A DNA stretch of 64,000 nt from Pseudomonadota bacterium. Lineage in GTDB: Bacteria > Pseudomonadota > Alphaproteobacteria > Acetobacterales > Acetobacteraceae. Made by a program: the position numbers and the translations under genes. Shown piece by piece: positions 34,774-52,857 of the stretch (position 1 is the first letter of the stretch; every line of letters starts with the position of its first letter). The stretch spans positions 386,042-450,041 of the forward strand of contig JAKBAD010000002.1 of assembly GCA_021809435.1 (NCBI GenBank), given 5' to 3'. The notes under the pieces are model-generated. The model made no database searches, was not told the DNA's origin, and was given only the letters and a program-made list of their open reading frames with translations.

Positions 34774-35490
34774 CTACTTCAGGTTTATAACCGGACCATC
34801 CGGAGTGACCAACGCTGTAAAGCGCCGGCCAGATGTAGGGTTGGTAAACAAAATCAAATCTCCCGCCCTGCCGTCCTGATCGGCAACCGCGAGCAGGCTT
34901 ACCGCAATGCCATTGCCATCAACCTTCACCATCACCTGCTGTCCGGCCTTTATCAAAACCGGCTGCTGAATATCTTGCTGCGTGACCACCATGCCAGACG
35001 AGATCGACATCATCGCCTCCGCCCCGACAACAGGCGCCGTGTTGTAAAAAACCTGCCGGCCGGCAAATATCTCGACTGGTTTCGACATCATCATAAGATC
35101 GCCTTCCCCAATCACGCTTCCCGCGGCAATCGGCCTCGCCGCCACCACCACCTGCTCAGACTGCGCAACCTCGACCTGCACGTAAAACACCCATGATGGC
35201 GCGCCGCATTTCACCGCGGCCTGCTCATAAGGAATGACGCCGCTCACGCTGACCGCCAAAGGCACCGAACAGGCCGACATGTATTTCACCCCGTCCAAGG
35301 TTCCCAGATGCAGCGTCGCACCAGGCGGCGTAACGGGCATAACGGCGCTCTTCACCGCCGCCGCCACCGCCTCGGGGCTTTCTTGCCCCGTCACCGGGGT
35401 GGCGGCGGCAGAGACCCACCATCCGCAAATAGCGGCCACAACACATAGCCCCCACAGCCGGGCATGGCGCCCCACCATCCGCCGCGTCAT
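34774..35490 (-). CDS. flgA: Flagellar P-ring assembly protein FlgA
   Basis: A 238-residue periplasmic chaperone needed for FlgI P-ring assembly. It has a signal-like N-terminus (LWGLCVVAAICGWWVSAAA). The C-terminal SAF/FlgA region is VVAARPIAAGSVIGEGDL, QDIQQPVLIKAGQQVMVKVDGNGIAV and the TSGRRFTALV end. It overlaps the giant transferase gene by four bases (ATGA), so the two are translated together. Its substrate FlgI is not in this window. Confidence 0.92.
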   Translation of the reverse strand: MTRRMVGRHARLWGLCVVAAICGWWVSAAATPVTGQESPEAVAAAVKSAVMPVTPPGATLHLGTLDGVKYMSACSVPLAVSVSGVIPYEQAAVKCGAPSWVFYVQVEVAQSEQVVVAARPIAAGSVIGEGDLMMMSKPVEIFAGRQVFYNTAPVVGAEAMMSISSGMVVTQQDIQQPVLIKAGQQVMVKVDGNGIAVSLLAVADQDGRAGDLILFTNPTSGRRFTALVTPDGPVINLK

Positions 35491-38400
35491 TCCGCGGCGG
35501 ATGGCAGCGCCGCCTCACGCATCGCCGCACCGCTCAACCAGTCAGGCCACGCCGCCTCAACCGGCGGCAAGGCCAAAGCGGCTTCACGCGTGCGCTTGCC
35601 GGCCGCCAGCGTTTCAGGCAGCGCGGCCATGGCCTGCTTCACTGCCTCTATCCAGGCCGCCAACCGGTTGGGCAGAAGCACCGGCATCAGCGCGCCCGGC
35701 ATATCCAAACGCTCATCCACAAATAGCTGGCACCCGGCCGCGGCGGCCATCAGCGCCGGATAATGATCAAGCGCATGCTCCGTCCCAACAGGCCTGACCA
35801 TGATATGGGGCCCAAGCTCGGCCAACGTCTTGGCCCAGGCATATTCCGACTCAGGCGGATCAATGCGCCCCACCGCGCCATCATAATCCCCACCGGGGCG
35901 CTGCACAACGATCCAGGACGCCACATCCATCGTTGCCTGAATGAGGTCCGCCACCCAGGGCGGCGCCACTCCTTCATCCACCCACAAAATGCGCGGCCGG
36001 GAATTCATTCCTCGCCCGAACTCCAGATCGACCCAAACCTGCCTCGACAATGCCGGCCGCCACAGCTCAACACGGCATGAAGGCGGGCATAATTTCTGCA
36101 CCCTCTTCACCAACCCCGGCGAGGTGGCCACCGCCCGCGCCATATGCGCCAGCGGGGCGGTCATCTCATCGCTCGGCGGCACCGTGAAGACCGCGACATA
36201 GTCCGGGCTCTCGGGCTGTGCATCGCGCACCGGATTAACCCTCACCCAAACCGCGGGCGCCCGGCGGCCAATATCCCCGGCGCTCGGCAGGTCCGGCACC
36301 CAGTCCGCCTCCACCTCGCCCGTCCGCCTTGCCGCCCGCGCCGCATTCAACACCGCGGCACCGCGCTGCGGGTCACCGCTAATCACAACATTGCGCGCCT
36401 CGGCGGGCATGGCGCGCACCAGCCCGGTACGCGTCTCGGCGGCCAACAAATCCCCATGCAACGAGAGCGCCGGGTGATGAAACGGATCCATCCACGCCAG
36501 CCCGCGCGCAACCTCCGATCCGCGCCGGAATGCACAGGCCGCGTCAACCTCGATCGCCTCCGGCGGGACCACAAACGACACATCCGGCGTCCACACGATT
36601 TTTCTGCCCTGGGCACGAATTTGCGCGCATAAATCAATCCACAGCGCATCGCCGGTTAACTCCGCAAAGCTGCAGGCCGCCAAAACCTCCCGGCGCGCCA
36701 TCAGCCCTGGCGGAGCCACGGCGCTCACCTCCTGGTCCACCAGCAACCAACCGCCCGGGCCGGGATCATCCACCGCACGGCCCGCCCCCAGGCGCGTATC
36801 GGCGCCCACCACAATCGGCCCCTGCACAAACGCGTTCTGTCCCCCCTCGCGAACAGACACCGTGAGCGTCCGCCCCCCAACAATGCCCACGCTCTCATCA
36901 TCGAGCCTCATGCGCAGCATCTCCCCCCATTGCGGCTGGGCAGCCGCCGCCCGGGCATCAATCACCACGACAAACGCCGTCACCGCCAAATCCAGAGCCG
37001 CGCGTAGCGTTTCAGCGCCCGGCACATCAGGCGCCGCCACCACCGCCCGCACCTGCCCGTGCAACTCGGCCTCCTGCGCCCGCACGGCGGTTAAATAAGC
37101 GCGCACTTCGGGCAGCAGAATCGTGCCGTATAAAATCACCGGCCCGGACATGACATGTCTGGTCAGCAATTCGCTCAAAAACCCATCCAGTGTCTTCACA
37201 TCCACCCTGTCGCAGCTCACCAGAAGGCTCGTGGCTCCCCCCCGGGCGGCGCGAATATGGTGGAACAACCCAACAAATTGGCGCCCCTGCACCTCGCTTG
37301 CCAGGCCCACGGCCGCCATATGCGCCTTCACCGCCTCAGCGGCCCGCGCACAGAACACATCCGTCTTGATATCATCTCGCCGGCTGCTGGCATGGCGCAC
37401 AAACAGCGTCTCGGGCAGCCGCTCCACCCGCGCCCCCGCGGCGGCCAGCCTGAGTTGGAAATCATACTCCTCGGCGCCCGCCCGCGTCGCGTCGAACCCG
37501 CCCAAGGCCGACACAGCCGCCCCCGCGTACCACACCCAATCGCCAATATAGGCCGCCTGGCGCAGCCTCGTCACATCCCAGGCCGGCTTATACCTGACCC
37601 AGTCGCCCTCCTCCCGGGGCACCACCTCGTCGCAATAAATCATCGCGGCCGAGCTTGCAGCCGCCGTAAGGGCAAAGCGGGCGCAGGCATCAACAGCCAC
37701 CGTGTCACCTGCATTGATCACCGCCACATAATCACTCTCGCGCGCTTCCTCATTGAGCAGCCGGCAAACCGCCGCCGTTGCCGCTTCCGGCTCATCTCCA
37801 ACCGCCACCACCCGCTCACTGCCCAGCACCACCCGGTCAGCGGCCAGCACCGTCACCTTGGGGTTAACAAAAATTTGTCCCCTGAGCGCCTCAAGTGTTT
37901 CGGAAACAGCCGAAACCCGCCCCTTGGGCGCCACCACCACCACCGAAACCGTGGGTATCTTGGCACATTGCGCCACCTGCCGCGCCAACGCGGCCCGCCC
38001 GCCTTCATCAAGCCGTTCGGGCGGGCGCAAATATCCGGCTCCAACCATGGGCTGCGGTGCCATGGTCAGCGCCGCCATTCCCCCCAGCGCCGGAATCACC
38101 CGCCCCTTGCTCGCCCCCACCTCGGTCAGGAACGACACGATCTCCGCCGTCTCCGCGGCCAGCGCATCCCACCGCGCCGGCGCCAAATCGCGCGCGCAAA
38201 TCATCCCCCATGTCCGCTCAACAAGATCGCGCAGCGGCGGAAACACCTTCGTCGCATCCAACGGCACCGAACGGTTCAGGCGCTGGGTAAAATAAGCCGC
38301 CGCCGCCTGCACCCCCGCCGGCTTCAAGCCCACCAGCCCAAGCCCCAAATCCCGGTCAATCCGCTCGATCTGCCCCACCGGATCGGCAAGCAATTCATGA

Positions 38401-38936
38401 TACGTCACCCAACTCCTGGGCAGTTTGCGCGCCACCGCCTCGGCCGACGTCGCATAGCTCATCCACAGCAACAGCGCATGCGCCCGGCTCAAGCCGTTTT
38501 TCAACTGTTGGCTGGCCGCCGCGGTCCACGGGTCTCTGAACACATGAATAACATGCGGCTCATGCCCCGCCTGTCGCACGACACGCTCATAAATCGGCAA
38601 TGTCCTGCATAAATGCGGATGCTTCAGTCCCCATACCCCATCACTCTGGCCAAATCGACGTCTAACAATATCATCAAGCTGCCCCATGAACGGGGCCAAA
38701 TCGGCACGCTCAACCCAGCCACTCTGCAAGCCGCGCACATCGGTCCATTCCACACCCAGCTTGGCGAATAAATTGACATCAAAATCAATCAACTCCGGAA
38801 TTTCATAAAACCCCAAAGGATTATGCTCATTCGGGTCGGCATCATTATAGATCTTGACCCCCAGCGCCGATAAAGCTCCAGACAGCGCCGATGTACCGCT
38901 CCGATAATATCCGACAACAAATATCGCGTCCGACAT
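35487..38936 (-). CDS. Giant sulfotransferase-glycosyltransferase fusion, likely flagellar glycosylation
   Basis: An 1149-residue cytosolic protein. Residues 1-230 resemble P-loop sulfotransferases: VVGYYRSGTSALSGAL (5'-phosphosulfate loop, 7-22) and HVIHVFRDPWTAAAS (3'-phosphate site, 128-142). Residues 328-560 look like a GT2 glycosyltransferase: VSVVVVAPKG, DYVAVINAGDT, and GGFDATRAGAEEYDFQLRL. Residues 565-800 are a second GT2-like unit (FVVVIDAR, GIVGGRT). Residues 845-1149 recall a GT-B (GT4-like) domain (HYPALMAAAAGCQLFVDE). It lies between flgL and flgA, 11 bases after flgL. Glycosylation, with possible sulfation, of flagellin is inference from position; the domain calls beyond the first two are tentative. 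Confidence 0.82.
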   Translation of the reverse strand: MSDAIFVVGYYRSGTSALSGALSALGVKIYNDADPNEHNPLGFYEIPELIDFDVNLFAKLGVEWTDVRGLQSGWVERADLAPFMGQLDDIVRRRFGQSDGVWGLKHPHLCRTLPIYERVVRQAGHEPHVIHVFRDPWTAAASQQLKNGLSRAHALLLWMSYATSAEAVARKLPRSWVTYHELLADPVGQIERIDRDLGLGLVGLKPAGVQAAAAYFTQRLNRSVPLDATKVFPPLRDLVERTWGMICARDLAPARWDALAAETAEIVSFLTEVGASKGRVIPALGGMAALTMAPQPMVGAGYLRPPERLDEGGRAALARQVAQCAKIPTVSVVVVAPKGRVSAVSETLEALRGQIFVNPKVTVLAADRVVLGSERVVAVGDEPEAATAAVCRLLNEEARESDYVAVINAGDTVAVDACARFALTAAASSAAMIYCDEVVPREEGDWVRYKPAWDVTRLRQAAYIGDWVWYAGAAVSALGGFDATRAGAEEYDFQLRLAAAGARVERLPETLFVRHASSRRDDIKTDVFCARAAEAVKAHMAAVGLASEVQGRQFVGLFHHIRAARGGATSLLVSCDRVDVKTLDGFLSELLTRHVMSGPVILYGTILLPEVRAYLTAVRAQEAELHGQVRAVVAAPDVPGAETLRAALDLAVTAFVVVIDARAAAAQPQWGEMLRMRLDDESVGIVGGRTLTVSVREGGQNAFVQGPIVVGADTRLGAGRAVDDPGPGGWLLVDQEVSAVAPPGLMARREVLAACSFAELTGDALWIDLCAQIRAQGRKIVWTPDVSFVVPPEAIEVDAACAFRRGSEVARGLAWMDPFHHPALSLHGDLLAAETRTGLVRAMPAEARNVVISGDPQRGAAVLNAARAARRTGEVEADWVPDLPSAGDIGRRAPAVWVRVNPVRDAQPESPDYVAVFTVPPSDEMTAPLAHMARAVATSPGLVKRVQKLCPPSCRVELWRPALSRQVWVDLEFGRGMNSRPRILWVDEGVAPPWVADLIQATMDVASWIVVQRPGGDYDGAVGRIDPPESEYAWAKTLAELGPHIMVRPVGTEHALDHYPALMAAAAGCQLFVDERLDMPGALMPVLLPNRLAAWIEAVKQAMAALPETLAAGKRTREAALALPPVEAAWPDWLSGAAMREAALPSAAE

Positions 38937-41927: not shown

Positions 41928-42564
41928 CGGATTTGGCTAAATCTCCCAACCCATCTCGAATAAGCGCAAGCTTCGCCTGAATGCTGGCATCCCAACCAAT
42001 ATTTTGAAACGGATCATTAGACTGGCCAAACACCTCAACCACCACACCGCCCCGCAGTACCGTCTTATCACCAATATAGTGAGCATTGGCATCACGAGCC
42101 TCGGCCGCCAAAATCGCTAAATCCTCTGGGTTAAGCCTTATCTCAACCCTCTTAGCAAAACTGAATCCTGAGACCTCATGCCAAATATACTCCAAAACGC
42201 GCGCGCCGTTCTCCTGAAACGAGTCACCAGACAGCGAACATAGTTCCACAATCCGAAAGGCGCACTTTAAAATAATATCTTCAATCACGTCCTCAAAACT
42301 CTTAATCGGCACTGTCAGCTCATCAACAGCGCTAACCAGCGCCGCCTCCACAGTCTCCAGGCGTTTTTTATAAGCCTCGATCTCCCGCGTTGCCGTCTCC
42401 TGACCAGCCGCATAACCATCGGCATATCCAGCGTTTCTCAGCTTCTCCACCTCAGCCTTAACCCGCCGGTCGATTTCCGCTGCATTATCAGCCGAAAAGG
42501 CATCTTTTGCCTCCACAACCACCTTCAGCAAATCATTCCTCTCCGACTTTCTGACAAAAGCCAT
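41920..42564 (-). CDS. fliH: Flagellar assembly protein FliH
   Basis: A 214-residue regulator of FliI. The N-terminal part contains GYADGYAAGQETATREIEAYKKRL, a GxxxG-type helical repeat found in FliH. The C-terminal region (VEIRLNPEDLAIL and DKTVLRGGVVVEVFG) matches the FliH/YscL/V-ATPase E family. The start at 42564 has AGGGA seven bases upstream; a GTG at 42582 is possible but would overlap the preceding gene. Confidence 0.88.
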   Translation of the reverse strand: MAFVRKSERNDLLKVVVEAKDAFSADNAAEIDRRVKAEVEKLRNAGYADGYAAGQETATREIEAYKKRLETVEAALVSAVDELTVPIKSFEDVIEDIILKCAFRIVELCSLSGDSFQENGARVLEYIWHEVSGFSFAKRVEIRLNPEDLAILAAEARDANAHYIGDKTVLRGGVVVEVFGQSNDPFQNIGWDASIQAKLALIRDGLGDLAKSDG

Positions 42565-42568
42565 AAAC

Positions 42569-42793
42569 CTATCCCTGACCACTCATTTTTTTCAGTGATT
42601 TGGCAAAGATCGACAGTGCCGGAATAATAATCATGGCACAGGATGTCGCCGCGACAAACATGAGTATAAATCTAATCCCAAATACCAGGCTGTTATCAAA
42701 ATCAAAGCATGATGGCTGATGCCCGGCAGCCCAGGCCGCCCCAAAAGCAAGCCCTATCGCAATGGGTTTGATTGTAACATCCTTGCCTTTCAA
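42569..42793 (-). CDS. Small two-helix membrane protein of the flagellar operon
   Basis: An unrecognised 74-residue protein between motB and fliH. It has two hydrophobic segments (about residues 10-22, IAIGLAFGAAWAA, and 38-60, VFGIRFILMFVAATSCAMIII) and a basic C-terminal tail (KSLKKM). It starts at a TTG with GGAGGA four bases upstream, just past the motB stop, and ends four bases before the fliH ATG, so it fills the gap exactly. No family is recognised. A motor or export role is inference from position. Confidence 0.55.
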   Translation of the reverse strand: MKGKDVTIKPIAIGLAFGAAWAAGHQPSCFDFDNSLVFGIRFILMFVAATSCAMIIIPALSIFAKSLKKMSGQG

Positions 42794-42808
42794 GACTCCT
42801 CCTAACAA

Positions 42809-43615
42809 TCATTCAGATGACTCAGCCGCCCTCACAACCACCACAACACGCCTGTTCTTTGCCCTACCTTGAGCGTTTGAATTATCAGCGACCGGAGAAA
42901 ACTGACCAAACCCCTGTGCCGACAAGGCATCTCCATTCACACCAACTGATTCAAACAGCTCCACCACCGTCACCGCCCGTTCCGCCGATAGTGACCAGTT
43001 CGAGGAAAATTGTGCCGTGGAGATCGGCTGATTATCGGTATATCCTTGAACAACAATCTTGAACTGTCCTGGTAATTGCGCAAGCCCATCGCCCACCTGC
43101 CTCAGCAGCGCCACCGCATCCGGCTTTAACGCCGCCTGACCAGATTGGAATAAAACCGAGGCATCCAGCTGTATTGTCAGAGACAAAGGCGCGCTGGTAA
43201 TGGCAACCGATTTTTGTGCAATCAAAGGCTGAAAGATAGACATTAGCTTTAGTTGTAGCGCCTCGAGATTCTGCACTTCCTTTTCTATCTGCTGCCTCAT
43301 GTTATTTGAGAGATTAGATTTTTTCTTATCTCTGACATCCGTCGGCGCCGGTATATTAATCTTTTCCAAAATTCCGTTAGAGGCTCCCGGCTTGGTTATA
43401 ATAACACTCGGCGGCGTACCATGAAACGCCTTAATAAAGGCTTGCGCAAACTCATCCTCCTTATGCTTACTTCTCGTTGACGATGCATATAAAACAACGA
43501 ATGTCGCCAAAAGAAGCGTCAGAAGATCGGCGTAGGAAATAACCCACCGTTCATGATTTGCATGTTTCTCCGGCTCCTGGCGGCGCCCTTTCGATTTACG
43601 TCCAGAACCACTCAT
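42809..43615 (-). CDS. motB: Flagellar motor stator protein MotB
   Basis: A 268-residue stator subunit. It has a charged cytosolic tail, one transmembrane segment (about residues 26-46, WVISYADLLTLLLATFVVLY) with the proton-carrying D30, a linker with plug-like sequence, and a C-terminal OmpA-like peptidoglycan-binding domain (QGYTDNQPIS, NWSLSAERA, NRRVVVVV). It overlaps motA by four bases. Confidence 0.95.
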   Translation of the reverse strand: MSGSGRKSKGRRQEPEKHANHERWVISYADLLTLLLATFVVLYASSTRSKHKEDEFAQAFIKAFHGTPPSVIITKPGASNGILEKINIPAPTDVRDKKKSNLSNNMRQQIEKEVQNLEALQLKLMSIFQPLIAQKSVAITSAPLSLTIQLDASVLFQSGQAALKPDAVALLRQVGDGLAQLPGQFKIVVQGYTDNQPISTAQFSSNWSLSAERAVTVVELFESVGVNGDALSAQGFGQFSPVADNSNAQGRAKNRRVVVVVRAAESSE

Positions 43616-44406
43616 TCTCCCGCCTCTGGTGCACTTTCTCCCGCCCCCTCCAAAGTCTTCACGTCCTTATTCTTTGATATGAACGCATCGAGGCTCTGCC
43701 TGATCACCACGCCAGGCTTACCCTCCGCCAGCAAAATGAGCCCCTTAACCAATATCGATCTCTCGTGCCCAAGCTCCTTTGCCAAATGTTTCAACCGCGC
43801 TCCTAATGGTAAGGCAATTAAATTGGCAAACCCGACACCATAAATCGTTGCCACAAAAGCCGTGGCAATACCCTCGCCAAGCTCCTCGGGATGATTAAGC
43901 CTCATCATGACATGAATAAGACCCAGCACAGCGCCCATCACACCAATTGTTGGTGAATACCCTCCAATCGCTTCCCAAACTTCACCAGCTTCCGCCTGCG
44001 TCTTGCCACTGATTTCAGAGCACTCAAAAAGAATCGTCTCCAAATCATCCAATGAGCTATTATCAATAATCAGTTGAAGCCCCCGCCTCTGAATGGGCTC
44101 ATCAACATCATTAATAATTTTTTCGAGCGCCAACGTACCTTGGCTTCTTGCTAATGACGACCATTCCGAGAGCTTTGAAACAAACGCCGTCAAATCAACC
44201 CTCGGCGGCTTTGCCAACCAGAGAATGGCCTTGAAAGCGCCCAGTACCGATTTAATACCAAAATGAACCATCGTCGCCGATAGCGAACCACATATAACAA
44301 TGATTACAGCCGTCAGGGAGCAAAGGGATGATAATGGGTCGTGATCAGAGAGCGCTCCTCCAATTACAACCAAAAACCCTAAAACGAGTCCCAATAAACT
44401 AGTCAC
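43612..44406 (-). CDS. motA: Flagellar motor stator protein MotA
   Basis: A 264-residue, four-helix membrane protein of the MotA/PomA family. The pore-lining segment is GGYSPTIGVMGAVLGLIHVM, and a second is GEGIATAFVATIYGVGFANLIALPLG. The large cytosolic loop carries the rotor-contact charges (EKIINDVDEPIQRRGLQ). The sequence looks closer to PomA/MotC types than to E. coli MotA; the coupling ion cannot be told. It overlaps the sigma factor gene by eight bases. Confidence 0.94.
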   Translation of the reverse strand: MTSLLGLVLGFLVVIGGALSDHDPLSSLCSLTAVIIVICGSLSATMVHFGIKSVLGAFKAILWLAKPPRVDLTAFVSKLSEWSSLARSQGTLALEKIINDVDEPIQRRGLQLIIDNSSLDDLETILFECSEISGKTQAEAGEVWEAIGGYSPTIGVMGAVLGLIHVMMRLNHPEELGEGIATAFVATIYGVGFANLIALPLGARLKHLAKELGHERSILVKGLILLAEGKPGVVIRQSLDAFISKNKDVKTLEGAGESAPEAGE

Positions 44407-44968
44407 TCATTTGACTCCGCTTTGCCATCCAACCATTCACACGCGATGCGATTTTACTTATCGCATTTTTCTTAATTTTGGATGCGTAGCCTTCGCTGAT
44501 CTCTAATATTTTGGCGATTTCCCGATTGTTTAAGTCTTCATAAAAATGGAGCGTTACGATGCGATATTCAATCTCAGATAAGCTTTTAAGAGCCTCTTCA
44601 ATCAGTGCGGCATTATCCTCGTTAACCAAACCCGATAACGGCACCTCACCTCGCGCATTGCCCTCAACAGCACTTATATTTTCAAGCTCTTCGACCTCAA
44701 CTCGCCCCCGCCTCTGCCGCCCCTCCCGGCGCAGCCCATCTATCATTGCCCCCCTGATACGTCGTGCCGCAAAAATCCGAAACTCTACACCTTTTTGAGC
44801 ATCGAAACGGGCCACAGCCTCCATCATTCCAATCGCCCCGAGCTGCAAAAGCTCATCCAAATCCGCCCATGGCATTCGAGACTTAACGAGAAGAGCCGCC
44901 TTCTTAATATCATTCGCGTAGATATCAATTATCGCACGATCTAAACAATGCCCCTCAAGCTCTTTCAT
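44399..44968 (-). CDS. fliA: Sigma-28-like flagellar sigma factor lacking region 3
   Basis: A 189-residue sigma-70-family protein. Region 2 is DLDELLQLGAIGMMEAVARFD, then FRIFAARRIRGAMIDGLR. Region 4 is ALKSLSEIEYRIVTLHFYEDLNNREIAKIL followed by the EGYASKIKKNA helix. The two are joined by a short charged linker of about 45 residues, with no recognisable region 3, and the protein is about 50 residues shorter than E. coli FliA. Position among flagellar genes and the FlgM-like gene in the block support a FliA role. It overlaps the end of flhA. Confidence 0.85.
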   Translation of the reverse strand: MKELEGHCLDRAIIDIYANDIKKAALLVKSRMPWADLDELLQLGAIGMMEAVARFDAQKGVEFRIFAARRIRGAMIDGLRREGRQRRGRVEVEELENISAVEGNARGEVPLSGLVNEDNAALIEEALKSLSEIEYRIVTLHFYEDLNNREIAKILEISEGYASKIKKNAISKIASRVNGWMAKRSQMSD

Positions 44969-47024
44969 CGCTAAGACCAAGAGTGTAAACTACCTTCATT
45001 CTAATACTATCTGGAATCTCATCTATCCCCAGCACAGTTAAAATATCGCCCACAACCTTGAATATTTTTCGTCTTATCAAAGAAGGCACGACAAGCGGAA
45101 CTCCCCCTCCAATTTCCCGTATATTTTTCAAAACCTCAAATGCACTCTCCCGTAAATGCCCAACAACATCTGGAGGAATATCCATATTCTCGCCAACATC
45201 CTTGGCCGCCTTGATAGACCGATAAACCAAATCTTCAAGCTTATCTCCAAGCACAATAACCCGTAGAACCCCCTCCTTGGTCACAAATTTATTGACGATA
45301 TACCTTCCAAGCCTTGCCCTAACCGCACTTAACAAGATATCGATATCTTTACCTCCAGATTCAGCACACTCAACCAAGGCCTCCGATATTCTTTCAAAAT
45401 CTCGGATAGCTATTCCCTCCATTAATAACGCCTGAAGAACCTGCCTGATTATGCTAACGCTAAGAGCCGTTCGGAGATCTTCAGCTAATCTAGGCGTCCC
45501 TTCAGCTAACCGCAAAATAAGCGCTTCCACTTGAGGACGCCCCAAGAGCTCAGCTCCGTATTTTTTAAGAATTTCTGAGAAATGCGTCGCTATCGCGGAA
45601 GATGCGTCAACAACAGTATATCCCATTTCTTCAGCCAGGGATATATCCCCTTGCGATATCCACACCGCCGGTTCGCCAAATGCAGGGTCTTTTACGTGAT
45701 GACCTTTGTTGAGTTTATTTATTACGTTTTGACCACCGAGCGCCAGCCACTGGTTCGGCCACGCCTCACCTTCAGATATATACGCCCCCCTGATTGAAAA
45801 CCGATATCCATGTATTGGAATATCAGAAGAATCTCGAATATGAACCGCAGGAACCAGAAATCCCATAGATCGTCCATATCTCTGCCTGACCGCAGTCAAT
45901 CTCTTCAGAAGTTTGGCATCCTCCCCACTAACAAGAGAAGACAAACCAAATCCAATGCTCATACCTAACGGGTCAACTCCAGTGACATCTGGAATCGCAT
46001 CTATCTTTACTTCATTCTTTGAATCATTTTTTTCTGAAACTTCCCGTGAAATAGTAGAAATTTCATCCTGACTTTCATTAATTTTCCATGCTGATCCAGC
46101 CAAAAGACCGGAGAAGAGAAAGAACGGCACATGCGCCATATGGGGTACGACACCCAGAATGCCTGTAATTAAAGCAGACACACCTAAAGCCTGAGGATAT
46201 TTTGATATTTGACTCGAAATTTGGGAATGAATATCCTCTCCTGTTGAGACTCTCGTAACAATCAAGCCCGCTGAAATCGAAATTGCCAAAGAGGGAATTT
46301 GAGCGGCCAGTCCATCACCAACCGTAAGTAATGTAAATGTTCGCGCAGCTGCGCCTAGATCTAGCCCATACTGAAAAACGCCGACAAGAAGGCCGCCAAC
46401 CATATTTATTGCCAGAATCGAAATAGCCGCAACTACATCCCCCCGCACAAATTTAGAAGCGCCATCCATAGCTCCAAAAAAATCAGCTTCTTTACGTAAT
46501 TCAGTTCTACGCCGCTCCGCCGCATCACTATTTAAAACCCCGGCATTGACCTCTGCATCAATCGCCATCTGTCGCCCAGGAAGAGAATCCAGCATAAATC
46601 GCGCCGCAACTTCGGCAACACGACTCGCTCCTTTTGTTATAACAACAAAATTAATTATGATAAGAATTATGAATACGATTCCACCAACAACATAATTTCC
46701 TCCGACCATAAAATAACCAAATGCTTCAATTACCTTTCCCGCAGCACCAGGTCCGCTATAACCATCCAGAAGGATGGTACGTGATGTCGCAACATTTAGC
46801 GCTAAACGCATCAAGGTTGTCGACAGCAAGACTGATGGAAATGAAGAAAACTCCGCTGGCGATTGGACATATAACGATGCAGATAAAACAACCAACCCTA
46901 TGGCGATATTTAGAGCAAATAAAAAAGATATTGCAGCACCTGGCAACGGTACAACTAGCATTGCCAAAATCACTAATACAATTGCAGGCCCAGACAGCTG
47001 CGATATTGATATATTTTTTTTCAT
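44955..47024 (-). CDS. flhA: Flagellar export gate protein FlhA
   Basis: A 689-residue export-gate component. About eight transmembrane segments lie in the N-terminal half, with the FHIPEP-family core (TRVAEVAARFMLDSLPGRQMAID is the equivalent region, ending in LPGRQMAID). The cytosolic C-domain (about residues 350-689) forms the ring that docks substrates and chaperones. Its codon and base composition is clearly AT-richer than the housekeeping genes. It is followed directly by the sigma factor gene. Confidence 0.96.
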   Translation of the reverse strand: MKKNISISQLSGPAIVLVILAMLVVPLPGAAISFLFALNIAIGLVVLSASLYVQSPAEFSSFPSVLLSTTLMRLALNVATSRTILLDGYSGPGAAGKVIEAFGYFMVGGNYVVGGIVFIILIIINFVVITKGASRVAEVAARFMLDSLPGRQMAIDAEVNAGVLNSDAAERRRTELRKEADFFGAMDGASKFVRGDVVAAISILAINMVGGLLVGVFQYGLDLGAAARTFTLLTVGDGLAAQIPSLAISISAGLIVTRVSTGEDIHSQISSQISKYPQALGVSALITGILGVVPHMAHVPFFLFSGLLAGSAWKINESQDEISTISREVSEKNDSKNEVKIDAIPDVTGVDPLGMSIGFGLSSLVSGEDAKLLKRLTAVRQRYGRSMGFLVPAVHIRDSSDIPIHGYRFSIRGAYISEGEAWPNQWLALGGQNVINKLNKGHHVKDPAFGEPAVWISQGDISLAEEMGYTVVDASSAIATHFSEILKKYGAELLGRPQVEALILRLAEGTPRLAEDLRTALSVSIIRQVLQALLMEGIAIRDFERISEALVECAESGGKDIDILLSAVRARLGRYIVNKFVTKEGVLRVIVLGDKLEDLVYRSIKAAKDVGENMDIPPDVVGHLRESAFEVLKNIREIGGGVPLVVPSLIRRKIFKVVGDILTVLGIDEIPDSIRMKVVYTLGLSDERA

Positions 47025-47036
47025 AACAAAACTTAA

Positions 47037-47306
47037 CTAGGGATGAACAATCGAAGGAATTAGACGATATGTATCCTTTGCATAAACCGTTAATAAATCG
47101 AATATTTTAGACCCCATCAAAATCACGATAAAAAAAATCACCCCCAACTTGCCTACAACCACAAGCGACGCTTCTCTTATTTGTGTTGCAGCCTGAAAAA
47201 TTCCACCTAAAATCCCTACCACTAAAAGCGGCAGAAGAAATGAAAACGAAAAAATTGACAATGATATGATAAAATTAGCAGTCAACCTACTTACTCCCGC
47301 TTTCAT
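47037..47306 (-). CDS. fliQ: Flagellar export protein FliQ
   Basis: An 89-residue membrane protein with two hydrophobic hairpin helices (about residues 11-36 and 50-72), the size and layout of FliQ in the FliPQR export gate. The segment VVGILGGIFQAATQIREASL matches the family (GLxxSxFQAATQIxExTL). Its start lies 20 bases inside the end of the fliM-fliN fusion in another frame. FliP and FliR are not in this window. Confidence 0.9.
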   Translation of the reverse strand: MKAGVSRLTANFIISLSIFSFSFLLPLLVVGILGGIFQAATQIREASLVVVGKLGVIFFIVILMGSKIFDLLTVYAKDTYRLIPSIVHP

Positions 47307-48552
47307 TATTTATCTGATCAATATCCTCAGCCAACGACGTCACTCTTATCCCGTATCGATCATTACCAACGGCTACGACTTCTCCGTATCCAAATTTTTG
47401 CCCATTAACATAAATTGAAAGAGGATCGCCAACTTGCTGATCCAACGCCAACACCTGTCCGTGCCGGACGGCCCGCGCCTCCTTTAGAGTTAACTTAGTC
47501 CTCCCCAACTCAACTGTAACCTCTACTTCAATTCGATCCAAAGCAGCCCTGATGATCGGCCTACTGGTTACCTTCTTAATTGCCTGCATTTGCTCAAGCT
47601 CAAGGTCTTGAACTTTTTTTTCTTCATCTACGCTTTTTAACGTGGAATCGGCATCCGCATTTGACATATTATTTTCTCCATTCAGCAGGGTTGAACAACA
47701 TATTACGCCGTTAATCTGTCCGTATTTAGCTTCAAACAATAAAATTTCGTCAGATAATATTCGACAAATTTCACCAAGCGAAATTGGGAGTATCGCCCCC
47801 ACCTCCCAGCCATTAATATGGCTAATCGGTAAAGAAAATCTGATCAACTCGGCTCTGATATTTAACGAAATATCATCGAGTAATTTTTCTATCGTATGCG
47901 CCCATAACCAATCGTCGGCTTGCCCCGTCAGTAAGCCAGACTGATTGCTTATCTTTGCCTCCAGCGGATCTAATGTCGAATACGGGATGATTAATTTTAT
48001 TGTTCCGGCTCCTAATGTCGTCTCAAAAATTCCCGTAAGAACAACAACCCAGTCCTTGGCGTCTCCTATTGCCAAAAGGGCACTAGAGGTTTCAAATGAT
48101 AATGGTTCTGGATGTATCTCAATTAAAGGAGCAAGTGAATCTTCAAAAGTTTTCGTCGTCAATATAATAAGCTGCTTTCCAATTCTTGCCTCCAAGCTTG
48201 AAAGCTCATACCTTTCAAATGGTATCGAAGCAGTCGAGCCACATAGCGCATCCACGATAGCGCCGATCAAATCTCCATCGACAACGACGAGAATTCTTCC
48301 CCTCAATGGAGAAATATCGATCATTCCGGCGAGCATTACATCCGGCAAAGACCCTAATGCTGATTCATGGGTAATAACATTTGTAATACAAGACAGGACT
48401 TGCACGGGATATCTTGTCTTTTGAAAAATATTTACAGATATCTGTCTAAGTATTCTGTCGGATAGACTCTCTATCAAAACCGAGCGAAGCTGTGGATTTC
48501 TACCCGTATCGAGCAGATCAAGTGCCTCATATTCGTCGTATTTGTCAGGCAT
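47287..48552 (-). CDS. FliM-FliN fusion, flagellar switch (C-ring) protein
   Basis: A 421-residue protein joining two normally separate C-ring subunits. Residues 40-290 follow FliM: a CheC-like middle domain with the PLRGRILVVVDGDLIGAIVDALCG strand-helix, then the first SpoA domain. Residues 296-421 are a complete FliN: a charged linker (STLKSVDEEKKV) and a SpoA domain (IEVEVTVELGRTKLTLKEARAVRHGQVLALD). The N-terminal CheY-binding motif of FliM (EIDALL) is only loosely present in KYDEYEALDLLD. There is no stop or frame change at the joint. It overlaps the FliK-like gene and fliQ. Confidence 0.9.
   Translation of the reverse strand: MPDKYDEYEALDLLDTGRNPQLRSVLIESLSDRILRQISVNIFQKTRYPVQVLSCITNVITHESALGSLPDVMLAGMIDISPLRGRILVVVDGDLIGAIVDALCGSTASIPFERYELSSLEARIGKQLIILTTKTFEDSLAPLIEIHPEPLSFETSSALLAIGDAKDWVVVLTGIFETTLGAGTIKLIIPYSTLDPLEAKISNQSGLLTGQADDWLWAHTIEKLLDDISLNIRAELIRFSLPISHINGWEVGAILPISLGEICRILSDEILLFEAKYGQINGVICCSTLLNGENNMSNADADSTLKSVDEEKKVQDLELEQMQAIKKVTSRPIIRAALDRIEVEVTVELGRTKLTLKEARAVRHGQVLALDQQVGDPLSIYVNGQKFGYGEVVAVGNDRYGIRVTSLAEDIDQINNESGSK
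47665..47679 (-). promoter_or_regulatory. Internal ribosome binding site and ATG for a free FliN
   Basis: Inside the fusion, at residue 296, the minus strand reads GGAGAAAATAATATG: GGAG, an eight-base spacer, then ATG. Translation from here would give a 126-residue FliN (E. coli FliN is 137) ending at the same stop. Internal starts producing the C-terminal SpoA part are known for SctQ in type III secretion systems. Confidence 0.7.
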
Positions 48553-49636
48553 ATTTGATTACATCTTTATTTTCAAAACTCAAAGATTCTATTCCATATT
48601 CAGATGATTTTCCAAAACTCTGCCTGCTTCTTGGCCGCCATCTATCAGAGGAATTTTGTGATGCCCCCTGCTGTTCGCCGCTATATTGTAAATTCAACGA
48701 TGATTGCTGATCTACACCAGATATTGACTGCCTTAAATCTGACGTACGAGACGTATCAGAGTGTACATTTATCATAATCATATTATTTGATATCGATACT
48801 TTAACTTTCGAGATCCCTATCCCATGAGCCATAACATTGAGTGTAACCTCACTGACATTATCACCCCTAATGTGACTGTTTATTTTCAAACTTTCAATAT
48901 TATCCACAGCTGTAATTTTCGCGCTAGATCTCGATACCGAAGCTAAATTATTAGCCGTCCCATTTACCTCTTTCATATTAAACATGTAGGTGTCACTAGT
49001 TCCTTGTTGAGGAATCAAAGACACATCACAAGTCGAGAGCTTATCTTTTGTATAATCGATTTTTTTTATCTCATGTCCCACAGAGCCTGAGTTTTCAATC
49101 AAGACATTTTGATTTCTGATATTATTTTTTTCTTCTATCCTGCGGGGTGACGTAGATTTAGACGACATTCCTTCAAATAAATTAAAAGTTTTTTTTATAT
49201 CAATTTTATCCTTGGACCTCGAATTAGGAAGCCTCTGGCTATTTTGGCTTTCAGAAACTCCAGCCAAATCTATCTGCTCGACAGATCCACTCGTAATTTT
49301 ATCTGGAATATCGATAGAACTTTGCAATATGGGACGCTCATCTCTTACCGACTTAATATTGCTAGACATATTATCCTGCGGCTGAATTGTCTTATCTCGC
49401 CCCCCCTGGTGCACCAGCTTTTTTTGGTCCTCGAGCTCCTTACCAAAGCTTGCTTTTTGTAAGGAAACACTACTCAAGAGCGGAGTTTCCTCAACACTAT
49501 GAGTGTGCCCAACCAGAGGCTCTCCAGTCACACTTCCATACCTCACCTGGCTTCCCGAAAACAGAGAATCCTTATGCTTTGCCGCGATCTGCCTGTGAAC
49601 TGGTGTGTGTTTCTGAATATCCGATATATTAATCAT
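48545..49636 (-). CDS. FliK-like hook-length control protein candidate
   Basis: A 363-residue, hydrophilic and probably largely disordered protein rich in Ser, Lys and Asn. Its C-terminal part (about residues 265-330, SEVTLNVMAHGIGISKVKVSISNNMIMINVHSD) follows the FliK C-domain pattern of alternating strands. Position between fliG and fliM and the long unstructured N-terminus fit FliK, the ruler and export-specificity switch. Sequence similarity is low. The 60 bases at 49141-49200 contain only 18 G+C. It overlaps fliG and the fusion gene by four and eight bases. Confidence 0.65.
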   Translation of the reverse strand: MINISDIQKHTPVHRQIAAKHKDSLFSGSQVRYGSVTGEPLVGHTHSVEETPLLSSVSLQKASFGKELEDQKKLVHQGGRDKTIQPQDNMSSNIKSVRDERPILQSSIDIPDKITSGSVEQIDLAGVSESQNSQRLPNSRSKDKIDIKKTFNLFEGMSSKSTSPRRIEEKNNIRNQNVLIENSGSVGHEIKKIDYTKDKLSTCDVSLIPQQGTSDTYMFNMKEVNGTANNLASVSRSSAKITAVDNIESLKINSHIRGDNVSEVTLNVMAHGIGISKVKVSISNNMIMINVHSDTSRTSDLRQSISGVDQQSSLNLQYSGEQQGASQNSSDRWRPRSRQSFGKSSEYGIESLSFENKDVIKYA

Positions 49637-50661
49637 ATCATTTCGTCCGTTTGCCCAAGGGTAATCTTACCCTCTGAAGAAAGTCTGAGTGCGATCTCAA
49701 CCACTTCTGCCTGGGCTGCAATCGCATCCGAGCGTCTAATCGGCGGACCAGACCTCAACTCTTCTTTCAGTATTTCAACCTGTCTTGATGACATATTCTG
49801 AAAAAATCTATTTCTTAGCGTGTCATCAACCAACCTAAGTGCCGCGGCAAGCTTATCTCCATTAACTTCTCGCAACAGGATTTGCATACCACGATCAGGA
49901 AGATTTCCCAGATCAATAAAGGTAAACAAATTCTCCTTTATCTTCTCAGAAACAACTTCGTCACGTTCCTTAATAGTGTTCAAAATTGAATCAGAGAGCG
50001 AACTCGAAAAGTGATTTAATATATCCGCCGCCTGCTTCGGTCCTCCCAAATTCGTTACCCGCCGATTTCCAGAAACCTCAAGATCCACTGACTTTTCCAA
50101 CATCTCTTTCAACTCCAGAACAGCTATCGGCGAAACCACGTCGAGCGTGGTAAACCTGAACAGTGCCTCTGCCGCCAACTCTTCGGGCAGGTTAGATAAT
50201 ATATTCGCCGCCAATTCATGCGGAACATGAGCCAAAAGCAGCGCAATGGTTTGGGGCCGCTCTCTTGAAATTTGAACCGCTAACGCTCTTGGGTCCGTAT
50301 TCGCAGGCAGCTGAAATACGTCCCGACGTTTTACTTTGCTGATTTTTGAAAGTATCTCTTTCGCCTGCGCATCTCCTAGGGCGTTTGTTAAAACCCTTGT
50401 CAAAAACTTAATACCATCAACCCCCACCCCCGCCCCCTGGAGGTCAGCCGCAAATGATATCATCACGTCATTTAAGGTTGATACAGGAATATCTCTAAGA
50501 GATGAAAATGACTGTGATATTTTGCCAACAACAGCACCGTCCATCTCTTTCAATATTTGTGAAGCGACATCCTCTCCAAGCTCACGCAAAACAAGCGCCG
50601 CCCTTGTCGGGCCGGAAAGCTGTTCAGCTGATTGTGCTTTTTGCTCATCAGTCATTCTCAT
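49633..50661 (-). CDS. fliG: Flagellar motor switch protein FliG
   Basis: A 342-residue rotor protein that transmits torque from the stator and binds FliF and FliM. It has the N-domain LSGPTRAALVLRELGEDVASQILKEMD, the middle-domain ERPQTIALLLAHVP motif (EHPQ in E. coli), GGPKQAADILNHFS, and a C-terminal charged torque helix (DRGMQILLREVNGDKLAAALR). Length is close to the usual 330. It overlaps fliF by 14 bases. Confidence 0.96.
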   Translation of the reverse strand: MRMTDEQKAQSAEQLSGPTRAALVLRELGEDVASQILKEMDGAVVGKISQSFSSLRDIPVSTLNDVMISFAADLQGAGVGVDGIKFLTRVLTNALGDAQAKEILSKISKVKRRDVFQLPANTDPRALAVQISRERPQTIALLLAHVPHELAANILSNLPEELAAEALFRFTTLDVVSPIAVLELKEMLEKSVDLEVSGNRRVTNLGGPKQAADILNHFSSSLSDSILNTIKERDEVVSEKIKENLFTFIDLGNLPDRGMQILLREVNGDKLAAALRLVDDTLRNRFFQNMSSRQVEILKEELRSGPPIRRSDAIAAQAEVVEIALRLSSEGKITLGQTDEMI

Positions 50662-52159
50662 CTACCCAGCTTTGCAAAATCCTTGCCACTCCAGGTATAT
50701 TATCCGAAACATAAGATTTGACATCTGGGTATGCCGGAGATGCAATCTGAAGCTCCTGCGGAGCCTGTTTTTTTTCAGGTAGCGCGCGTCTTTCGGCCAT
50801 CAAATAGAGCTTTTTCCCAGCCGGCCTGACAATACCAAACAAAATCGTGATGACCGCCAGAAGCTCAAAAACAGGCTGTGAGATGGATGGAGCAATGGCC
50901 GAAATCTCTGACGAAATTTGCGTCCCCTTCGGCAGTTGATACCGCTCGTCATAAACAGATATGGTTGTTGGCTGATTTGAAAACGAACTCGAAATTATGC
51001 TCTTGATTCCTGAGTCTTTAATTCCATTACCCAAGGCCGTTGTGTTGATAACAATCGATACAGAAAGTGATTTCAGGGCCCAAGGCGCGTTGGTGATTTT
51101 CGTTTCCCGCTCATCATTAAGATAAAGCTGGTCATAACTCTCGTCTGTATTCGCCGGTTTGGCCGCGGCGCCAGCCGAAGCTGTATTCTGCGCTCCTTGC
51201 CCGTTAGGCGGCGGCGGCGTCGTGGATGTCTGCCCAGGGGGCTCGTTCGACAAGGCCCCAGGTATGCCATAAGCGGCATCCATATTTGATTTCACCGAGC
51301 TATTCGTCGTTAGATGTGAAAAATCATGCCCTGGACCGTAACTAATCTGATGAATATCAACCTGCGAGAAATCAACATTCGCCAGAACCGAGACACGAAA
51401 ATTATCCGCCCCCAAGATCGGGGTCAGCAATGACGTAATACGTTGCTGTGCGTCAGCTTCTATTTCCCTGGTGACTTGTATTTGGCTCTCTGGAATCAGA
51501 GCCTTTGATGCCGGAAATACCGTAGTACCAGACAAAGTCTGGATCGATATATCGTCGGACGAAATTCCTGGCACAGCTCCTGAAATCAAATTGGCAATAG
51601 CCTGCGCGTCCGCCCGGGCAGTCTCATCGGTAGCACCAATTATTACAGATGCAGAAGGTTTTGGGCTATCTTGTAAAAACGGCGTATCATCCGGCGTTGC
51701 CACAAAAACCTGAGCACTCTGCACGCCGTTCATTTGCATGATTGAGTCAGATATAGACTGCTCGAGCGCCCGCGTCGCCAATGTCTGTTGCGCCAAATCT
51801 GACGCTGTAAGCGGCGCATTCACCAGTGCGTTCACAGCATCCTGTGCGCCAGATTGCGGAATTTGCGCGTCTCCAAGCTCCAGCCGTGCCTGTCCCAGCA
51901 TGTCATCCGGCACGGCAATCACATTGCCGGCCTGCTCCAGCCTATACGGAATCCCAAGCTTTTGTAACTCCGCAATAATCTTTCCGCCGTTTGCCGGTGT
52001 CAGCCCGTCGCTCAAAACCGCATAGGGCGGACCAGCTAATTCAACCCCTCCGCCAATCGCCGCGGCCAGCACGGCAATCCCCACCAGCATCCACCCCCAC
52101 AGCGGAACATTGGCGAGATACCCAGCGACTTTCTTATAGGAGTCAGCAAGTGATGGCAT
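50648..52159 (-). CDS. fliF: Flagellar MS-ring protein FliF
   Basis: A 503-residue MS-ring subunit. TM1 is about residues 19-42 (VPLWGWMLVGIAVLAAAIGGG), the periplasmic ring-building motifs follow (GIPYRLEQAG, ARLELGDAQIP, AQVFVATPDDTPF), and TM2 is near 430-450 (PVFELLAVITILFGIV). The short C-terminal tail binds FliG. It is somewhat shorter than the 550-residue E. coli protein, with a reduced cytosolic tail. Confidence 0.95.
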   Translation of the reverse strand: MPSLADSYKKVAGYLANVPLWGWMLVGIAVLAAAIGGGVELAGPPYAVLSDGLTPANGGKIIAELQKLGIPYRLEQAGNVIAVPDDMLGQARLELGDAQIPQSGAQDAVNALVNAPLTASDLAQQTLATRALEQSISDSIMQMNGVQSAQVFVATPDDTPFLQDSPKPSASVIIGATDETARADAQAIANLISGAVPGISSDDISIQTLSGTTVFPASKALIPESQIQVTREIEADAQQRITSLLTPILGADNFRVSVLANVDFSQVDIHQISYGPGHDFSHLTTNSSVKSNMDAAYGIPGALSNEPPGQTSTTPPPPNGQGAQNTASAGAAAKPANTDESYDQLYLNDERETKITNAPWALKSLSVSIVINTTALGNGIKDSGIKSIISSSFSNQPTTISVYDERYQLPKGTQISSEISAIAPSISQPVFELLAVITILFGIVRPAGKKLYLMAERRALPEKKQAPQELQIASPAYPDVKSYVSDNIPGVARILQSWVDEND

Positions 52160-52161
52160 TG

Positions 52162-52464
52162 TTAGATTTGCATGTTAAAAATTGCCTGATACGCGCCAAC
52201 TAACTCATTGCGCACACCAAGTGTCGCATTCCACATAACCTGCGCCCGGTCACTGGAAACCAATGCCTTTCCCAGCGTATAGCCAGGCAACCCGGTTGTG
52301 TATCCGGCCTCGGCGGTGGTCGCGGCTTTTTGGCTGTCGCTTACCGTCGTAAGCGCCTGATTGAGCAGCGTAACAAAACTCGTCCCCCCGCCTGAGGAGG
52401 CGGTCGGCAAGACCTGACCCAAGGGCGCAATGGCCCCCACAGACATCTGCGATATGTTTGTCAT
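52162..52464 (-). CDS. fliE: Flagellar hook-basal body protein FliE
   Basis: A 100-residue proximal-rod adaptor that connects the MS ring to the rod. The C-terminal segment DRAQVMWNATLGVRNELVGAYQAIFNMQI is the conserved FliE end (VRNKLVxAYQEIMRMQ). It is the first gene of the leftward flagellar block, two bases before fliF. Confidence 0.92.
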   Translation of the reverse strand: MTNISQMSVGAIAPLGQVLPTASSGGGTSFVTLLNQALTTVSDSQKAATTAEAGYTTGLPGYTLGKALVSSDRAQVMWNATLGVRNELVGAYQAIFNMQI

Positions 52465-52857
52465 GATTGATTAAATCTCGAATCAGGCGTGGAGGTTGCA
52501 AGAACCTGAAAATAGACCAAAGCCGAACAAATTCTGTCGCCCTTCCAAGCTGCATGTTACGCGTGTATCGTTGGCTGGTTTATAACAAGGCAGCTAAAAT
52601 TCAGTTAACTTTGGTACCCGCCGGCTTTAATCTGAACGGTTGCCCCCGAACCGTCCGTCACCACCTGGCGAGCACAAAAGCTGATTGGCGCAAACTCGAA
52701 CGAGCCTGCCCTATCCACCTCATCCGCCCCACCAGACCCGCCTGTGCCTACTCCTCGCCTGACCGGCGCGATTTATTTTGCCTCATTATAATCGGCCAGC
52801 GCCCATTGCGGCCCGCGTCCAGCGCGCCTAACTGGCAGAAAACGTCAGGACCATTGC
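52465..52857. promoter_or_regulatory. 393-base divergent spacer between fliE and the RND efflux operon
   Basis: This gap holds no convincing gene. For the rightward operon a perfect TATAAT is at 52787-52792 but with no fitting -35. An inverted repeat ACGGTT/AACCGT with a seven-base loop is at 52636-52654 and could be an operator or a small hairpin. AGGA lies seven bases before the adaptor ATG. No TetR- or MarR-type regulator gene adjoins the pump operon. Confidence 0.4.
52579..52608 (-). promoter_or_regulatory. Candidate sigma-70-like promoter for the flagellar block
   Basis: On the minus strand TTAACT and TATAAA are separated by 18 bases, about 115 bases upstream of the fliE start. It is the best -35/-10 pair I found in the gap. 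No convincing sigma-54 (GG-N10-GC) or CtrA (TTAA-N7-TTAA) site was found. Confidence 0.35.

Follow-up and report, generated by a model that had tools for sequence, protein, structure and literature searches.

The flagellar switch ring needs about three FliN for each FliM, and the Salmonella C-ring has been counted at 34 FliM and 102 FliN subunits (PMC11087270). In ordinary flagella the two proteins are encoded separately. In injectisomes, SctQ (YscQ, SsaQ, Spa33, SpaO, HrcQ) is described as the product of one gene that carries two SpoA domains in a single chain, and an internal start within this gene yields a second product comprising SpoA2 (PMC4832279, PMC8553256). Full-length SctQ has been described as a FliM-FliN fusion that binds two of the internally started C-terminal copies, a unit equal to FliM plus three FliN, while the N-terminal domain of Spa33 has been argued to differ from that of FliM (PMC4832279).

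FliM and FliN have also been joined in flagella by mutation or by design. A Salmonella FliM-FliN fusion mutant forms few and fragmented C-rings and is rescued by FliN and not by FliM (Kihara 1996, quoted in PMC4832279), and such a fusion is stated to support flagellin secretion and some swarming (PMC4443714). These proteins, like the engineered FliM(SPOA)::FliN of PDB entry 4YXB, are partly functional joined forms (PMC4832279, PMC4443714); unlike the gene described here they are a mutant or a construct and not a natural, fixed arrangement, and what these two sources say of them includes no report of a conserved internal start. Hints of internal starts within flagellar C-ring genes are given for Thermotoga FliY and E. 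coli FliN (PMC4832279), but neither is a FliM-FliN fusion and the internal product is an extra there. In the open-licence literature we found no description of a natural FliM-FliN fusion of a flagellum.

We analyzed a 64,000-nucleotide stretch of DNA (the window) from a genome of the Acetobacteraceae (2.65 Mb in 12 contigs, listed as 100% complete). Judged from sequence and its conservation, one gene in this window would supply two C-ring subunits, namely a fused FliM-FliN and a free FliN made from an internal start, a reading to which we assign a probability of about 0.87.

FliM and FliN in a single frame

An earlier inspection of the letters alone (the sequence-only reading) had described a continuous frame holding a FliM-like part and a full FliN-like part, with GGAG, 8 nt and ATG at their joint. 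Both are present, on the minus strand; the plus strand of 47287-48552 is full of stops. The main type referred to below is defined in the following sections.

47287..48552, minus strand: fused fliM-fliN gene (fliMN), a 421-aa ORF with an ATG start, containing PF02154 and two PF01052 stretches
47668..48552, minus strand: FliM part, residues 1-295, with the FliM middle domain (PF02154, 27-200) and the first SpoA domain (the weaker PF01052 place)
47287..47667, minus strand: FliN part, and predicted free FliN of 126 aa from the internal ATG (PF01052, residues 337-407)
47676..47679, minus strand: internal Shine-Dalgarno GGAG, 8 nt 5' of the ATG, assigned from sequence and from conservation among main-type copies
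47665..47667, minus strand: internal FliN start codon ATG, assigned from sequence and found in all 29 main-type copies

The FliM middle domain matches residues 27-200 of the fused protein at 69.4 bits (5.1e-19; Pfam cut-off 27). FliMN_C/SpoA (PF01052) matches two stretches (5.1e-29 for the whole protein), the better at residues 337-407, and the second provides the C-terminal SpoA domain that follows the FliM middle domain. At the DNA level, exactly two places in the whole genome exceed the PF01052 cut-off of 23.8 bits, with 75.1 bits for the FliN part and 32.2 for the FliM part. Because both fall in the fused ORF, the whole-genome PF01052 search found no separate fliN in this genome, which removes an outcome that the sequence-only reading had named as fatal to it.

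Against the more specific NCBIfam models, the FliM part is divergent: the FliM equivalog TIGR01397 scores 129.9 bits, under its cut-off of 219.6, and the best FliM match covers residues 27-282. The FliN model TIGR02480 reaches 79.7 bits, just under its cut-off of 84.05. The CheY-binding motif at the N-terminus of FliM is of the EIDALL type, and inspection by eye shows EALDLLD at residues 9-15 of the FliM part, at most a possible counterpart. The best match in the PDB is 4YXB, which covers both SpoA domains (residues 223-409). A structure prediction of the fused protein (AlphaFold, with an alignment of two sequences) gave a mean pLDDT of 29.9 and was too poor for use.

The gene is embedded among flagellar genes, of which the nearest are as follows.

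49633..50661, minus strand: fliG, with FliG_N, FliG_M and FliG_C
48545..49636, minus strand: upstream ORF of 363 aa in the fliK place, sharing 8 nt with the start of fliMN; it is called fliK by location only, as a guess
47037..47306, minus strand: fliQ (PF01313), downstream, overlapping the fliMN end by 20 nt
44955..47024, minus strand: flhA (FHIPEP, 1.9e-215)

For fliQ, the best NCBIfam match is also fliQ, under its own cut-off. The neighbours on the same strand encode FliD, flagellin, an FlgA-like protein, FliI (identified by its ATPase and T3SS_ATPase_C domains), FliH, MotB, MotA and a sigma factor, as well as FlhA, FliQ, the fliK-place ORF, FliG, FliF and FliE. The gene set is a flagellar cluster.

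The layout is SctQ-like, as had been noted from the letters: two SpoA domains lie in one chain together with a conserved internal start signal, although here the start is known from its sequence signal. One could then ask whether the gene is an injectisome sctQ and not a flagellar switch gene, and the NCBIfam SctQ model (SpaO_YscQ, TIGR02551) does match residues 317-407 at 67.4 bits. This match is under the cut-off of 100.8 and is confined to SpoA2, whereas the protein has a FliM middle domain and its best FliM match spans 27-282. Moreover, the neighbours include flagellin, FliD, FliG, FliE, FliF, the stator proteins MotA and MotB and an FlgA-like protein, and no injectisome cluster. We regard an SctQ identity as very improbable. 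Compared with ordinary flagella, in which FliM and FliN are separate, the domains and the neighbours are the same; the difference is that here the two share one frame, and that free FliN would arise inside it.

Distribution of the fusion

Among 38 genomes of the genus, 33 have protein matches and 31 carry the fusion, 30 of them unbroken and one (G013) split over two contig ends, where the second piece covers the joint. In place of the fusion, G004 and G027 carry a distant fliM of the ordinary kind and of normal length, and G004 has a separate fliN as well. These two genomes, although placed in the same genus, possess a different flagellar system (L066-L068, L095, L096) with an flhA only 40% identical. 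Five genomes gave no match. In four of these flhA was not found either; in the fifth, G031, the contig stops about 60 nt past flhA, toward the fliQ/fliMN place. G005 and G008 each have a second fused copy. These second fusions (L057, L058) lie in second flagellar clusters and have a weaker internal signal.

The search was extended to samples of the family (299 genomes), class (385) and phylum (398), each counting the window's own genome. Under the strict limits used for the class (E up to 1e-15) and phylum (E up to 1e-13), no further unbroken match covering both parts was found; the matches there that did cover both parts contained stops. Outside the fused group, the matches inspected in the three samples, for the family among the matches listed, are separate genes or are broken by stops. 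A tblastn search of plasmids found FliM/FliN only at less than 60% identity, in 22 records, mostly from enterobacteria and Cupriavidus. A scan of genome contigs yielded a single locus, L056, which judging by length is the contig already represented by L004.

The comparison of related genomes for split and fused forms, which the sequence-only reading had proposed, thus places the fusion in 31 of 38 genomes of the genus, and a sequencing error at the joint, another of its stated risks, is refuted by these relatives. An artefact that joined two separate genes would be easiest to imagine where a single stop separates genes sharing one frame, as is the case at L035 and L036 of another genus; set against 30 genomes with an unbroken fusion and one more with it in two contig pieces, its probability is negligible. 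The fusion is a fixed arrangement of the lineage.

Conservation of the internal start

The main type comprises 29 fused copies, namely L003-L028, the second copies of G005 and G008, and the G013 piece. All 29 have an in-frame ATG at the joint. We compared the region 4-12 nt 5' of this ATG with shuffled sequences in which synonymous codons were redrawn using each gene's own codon usage. GGAG occurs in 26 of the 29 copies versus 7.5 expected, AGGA in 25 versus 2.6, AGGAG in 22 versus 3.9, and any of GGAG, GAGG or AGGA in 28 versus 15.8. The joint had been proposed to be an internal ribosome binding site, and these counts support the proposal.

A single glycine column illustrates the same point. 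Four residues before the joint ATG, glycine is encoded by GGA in 22 of 23 cases, versus 20 of 625 in 25 other conserved glycine columns of the same genes, none of which has more than three; this comparison uses 26 of the 29 copies (without the AT-rich L003 and L004 and the G013 C-terminal piece), and the same tree serves as its own control. In four copies the ribosome-binding letters are kept despite changed amino acids: the joint of L017 reads GAG GAG GAG, L027 has AGGAG with a longer linker, and the register is shifted in L003 and L004.

Predicted Shine-Dalgarno pairing was also considered. In 25 of the 29 copies, one of which has no other ATG, the joint ATG has the strongest predicted pairing among in-frame ATGs. 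In 23 of 28 copies it also pairs more strongly than the first start, for which the first Met of the frame was used. Both counts carry a mild bias in that the joint Met was taken as the best-paired Met near the joint. Stronger predicted pairing at the internal start than at the first would favour an excess of FliN. Signals are weaker in L028 and in the second copies of G005 and G008. A synonymous shuffle of the joint scored by pairing energy was significant in 0 of 29 main-type copies, since the residues encoded there tend in any case toward purine-rich codons.

On these data, the internal start is both conserved and selected at the nucleotide level. Two other accounts of the joint were weighed. 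It is possible in principle that only the fused protein is made, giving a ring with FliN and FliM at 1:1, and that the internal ATG persists as a relic of the start that fliN once had. The absence of an excess in the energy-based shuffle agrees with this, as does the partial function of the Salmonella fusion (PMC4443714), but a relic would not hold GGA at 22 of 23 while other conserved glycine columns in the same genes and on the same tree stand at 20 of 625. Alternatively, free FliN could be released by proteolysis at the linker between the SpoA domains and not by internal translation. This linker does vary in length and sequence among copies; nevertheless, cleavage leaves the nucleotide-level conservation of a ribosome binding site unexplained, and we consider it still less probable than the relic, which is itself improbable in light of the fusions described next.

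Fusions that lack the internal start

Six further fusions, in G036, G037, G006 and G028 of the same genus and in G090 and G214 of another genus of the family, form clade B. Clade B is monophyletic in the FliM tree (support 99/96, or 100/96 without four rows), and its sister is L028, which has kept the internal start (96/74, or 100/99 without the four rows). On the first tree, the states split, fused with start and fused without start require two changes. The G013 N-terminal piece was left out of the trees, and for clade B the FliN rows were obtained by a crude cut that kept the final 125 residues.

An in-frame ATG in the linker with GGAG, AGGA or GAGG 4-12 nt upstream is present in 0 of 6 clade-B copies versus 28 of 29 in the main type. 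At L033, one ATG is predicted to pair moderately (-6.4 kcal/mol), and certain GTG codons do equally well. Five of the six clade-B genomes have a separate fliN. In each of the five it lies in the interval from fliG to flhA, where fliQ was detected too in four; this site is the usual place of the fused gene. The fused gene is relocated in clade B. In G036, the fused gene (L069 1-10000) shares its contig with two response regulators, an MCP, CheA, CheW, CheR and CheB. Neither a separate fliN nor flhA was found in the G036 assembly, and the flagellar locus is therefore lost or unassembled there.

The separate FliN proteins of G006, G028 and G037 cluster with the FliN part of L028 (84/80), and the FliN domain of the clade-B fusions sits on long branches. 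Since five of the six genomes lacking the signal carry a separate fliN, free FliN seems to be needed, which also stands against a relic start and a ring of fused protein alone. The simplest reading is that clade B, on losing the internal start, regained free FliN by way of a dedicated gene.

Proposed mechanism and origin

Taken together, the Salmonella subunit ratio, the SctQ model, the Kihara mutant and the match to 4YXB are the grounds on which the gene looks like a natural version of a FliM-FliN fusion supplemented by free FliN. We propose that initiation at the first ATG would give the 421-residue fusion, and that initiation at the conserved internal Shine-Dalgarno and ATG would give a free FliN of 126 residues in an amount that we can only infer. 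The fused chain would provide one FliM:FliN (SpoA1-SpoA2) pair, and two free FliN would complete a unit of one FliM to three FliN, presumably assembling as SctQ does with its internal product. Fused protein and free FliN would then be expected at about 1:2, and in the main type the internal product would apparently be the sole source of free FliN.

With respect to origin, loss of the fliM stop had been suggested from the letters. Two genomes of another genus in the family (G286 and G255; L035 and L036) have fliM and fliN at the corresponding place, in a common frame and with a single stop codon between them, which is immediately followed by ATG. These in-frame fliM-stop-fliN pairs fit a fusion that arose by loss of the stop, with the fliN start retained inside. 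We think it likely, with less assurance than for the two-product reading itself, that a flagellum here repeated on its own the event from which SctQ has been proposed to derive: fliM and fliN merged, and the ribosome binding site of the former fliN was fixed as an internal start, which now governs how much fused protein is made relative to free FliN. In one descendant clade the two jobs would then have been separated again, with the fusion moved beside chemotaxis genes, its internal start lost and its FliN domain drifting, and with a stand-alone fliN retained at the old site.

The principle would be the one already known from injectisomes, and the apparent novelty lies in a natural fused FliM-FliN in a flagellum. 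Evolution appears to have tied one FliN to each FliM and to have kept a second start for the remainder, the same solution as that of injectisomes, here in a motor that actually rotates. Its lineage provides a natural series, from split genes to a fusion with an internal start to a fusion without the start plus a separate fliN, in which the requirement of the flagellar switch for free FliN could be tested directly, as could the proposed descent of SctQ from a FliM-FliN fusion.

Other features of the cluster

The 363-aa ORF in the fliK place has no match in Pfam or NCBIfam. It shares 25% identity with its positional counterpart in the nearest relative (L070), where FliG is 91% identical. Between the FlgA-like gene and a flgL-like gene, an ORF of 1149 aa (35487-38936, minus strand) matches sulfotransferase and glycosyltransferase families weakly, with scores below or close to the cut-offs, and is perhaps involved in flagellin modification. 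Finally, within window positions 42000-52499, GC content drops to about 40% across fliMN and the fliK-like gene, versus 61% for the window; the fused gene itself has 43% GC here, 41% in G015 and 51-67% in the other fused copies.
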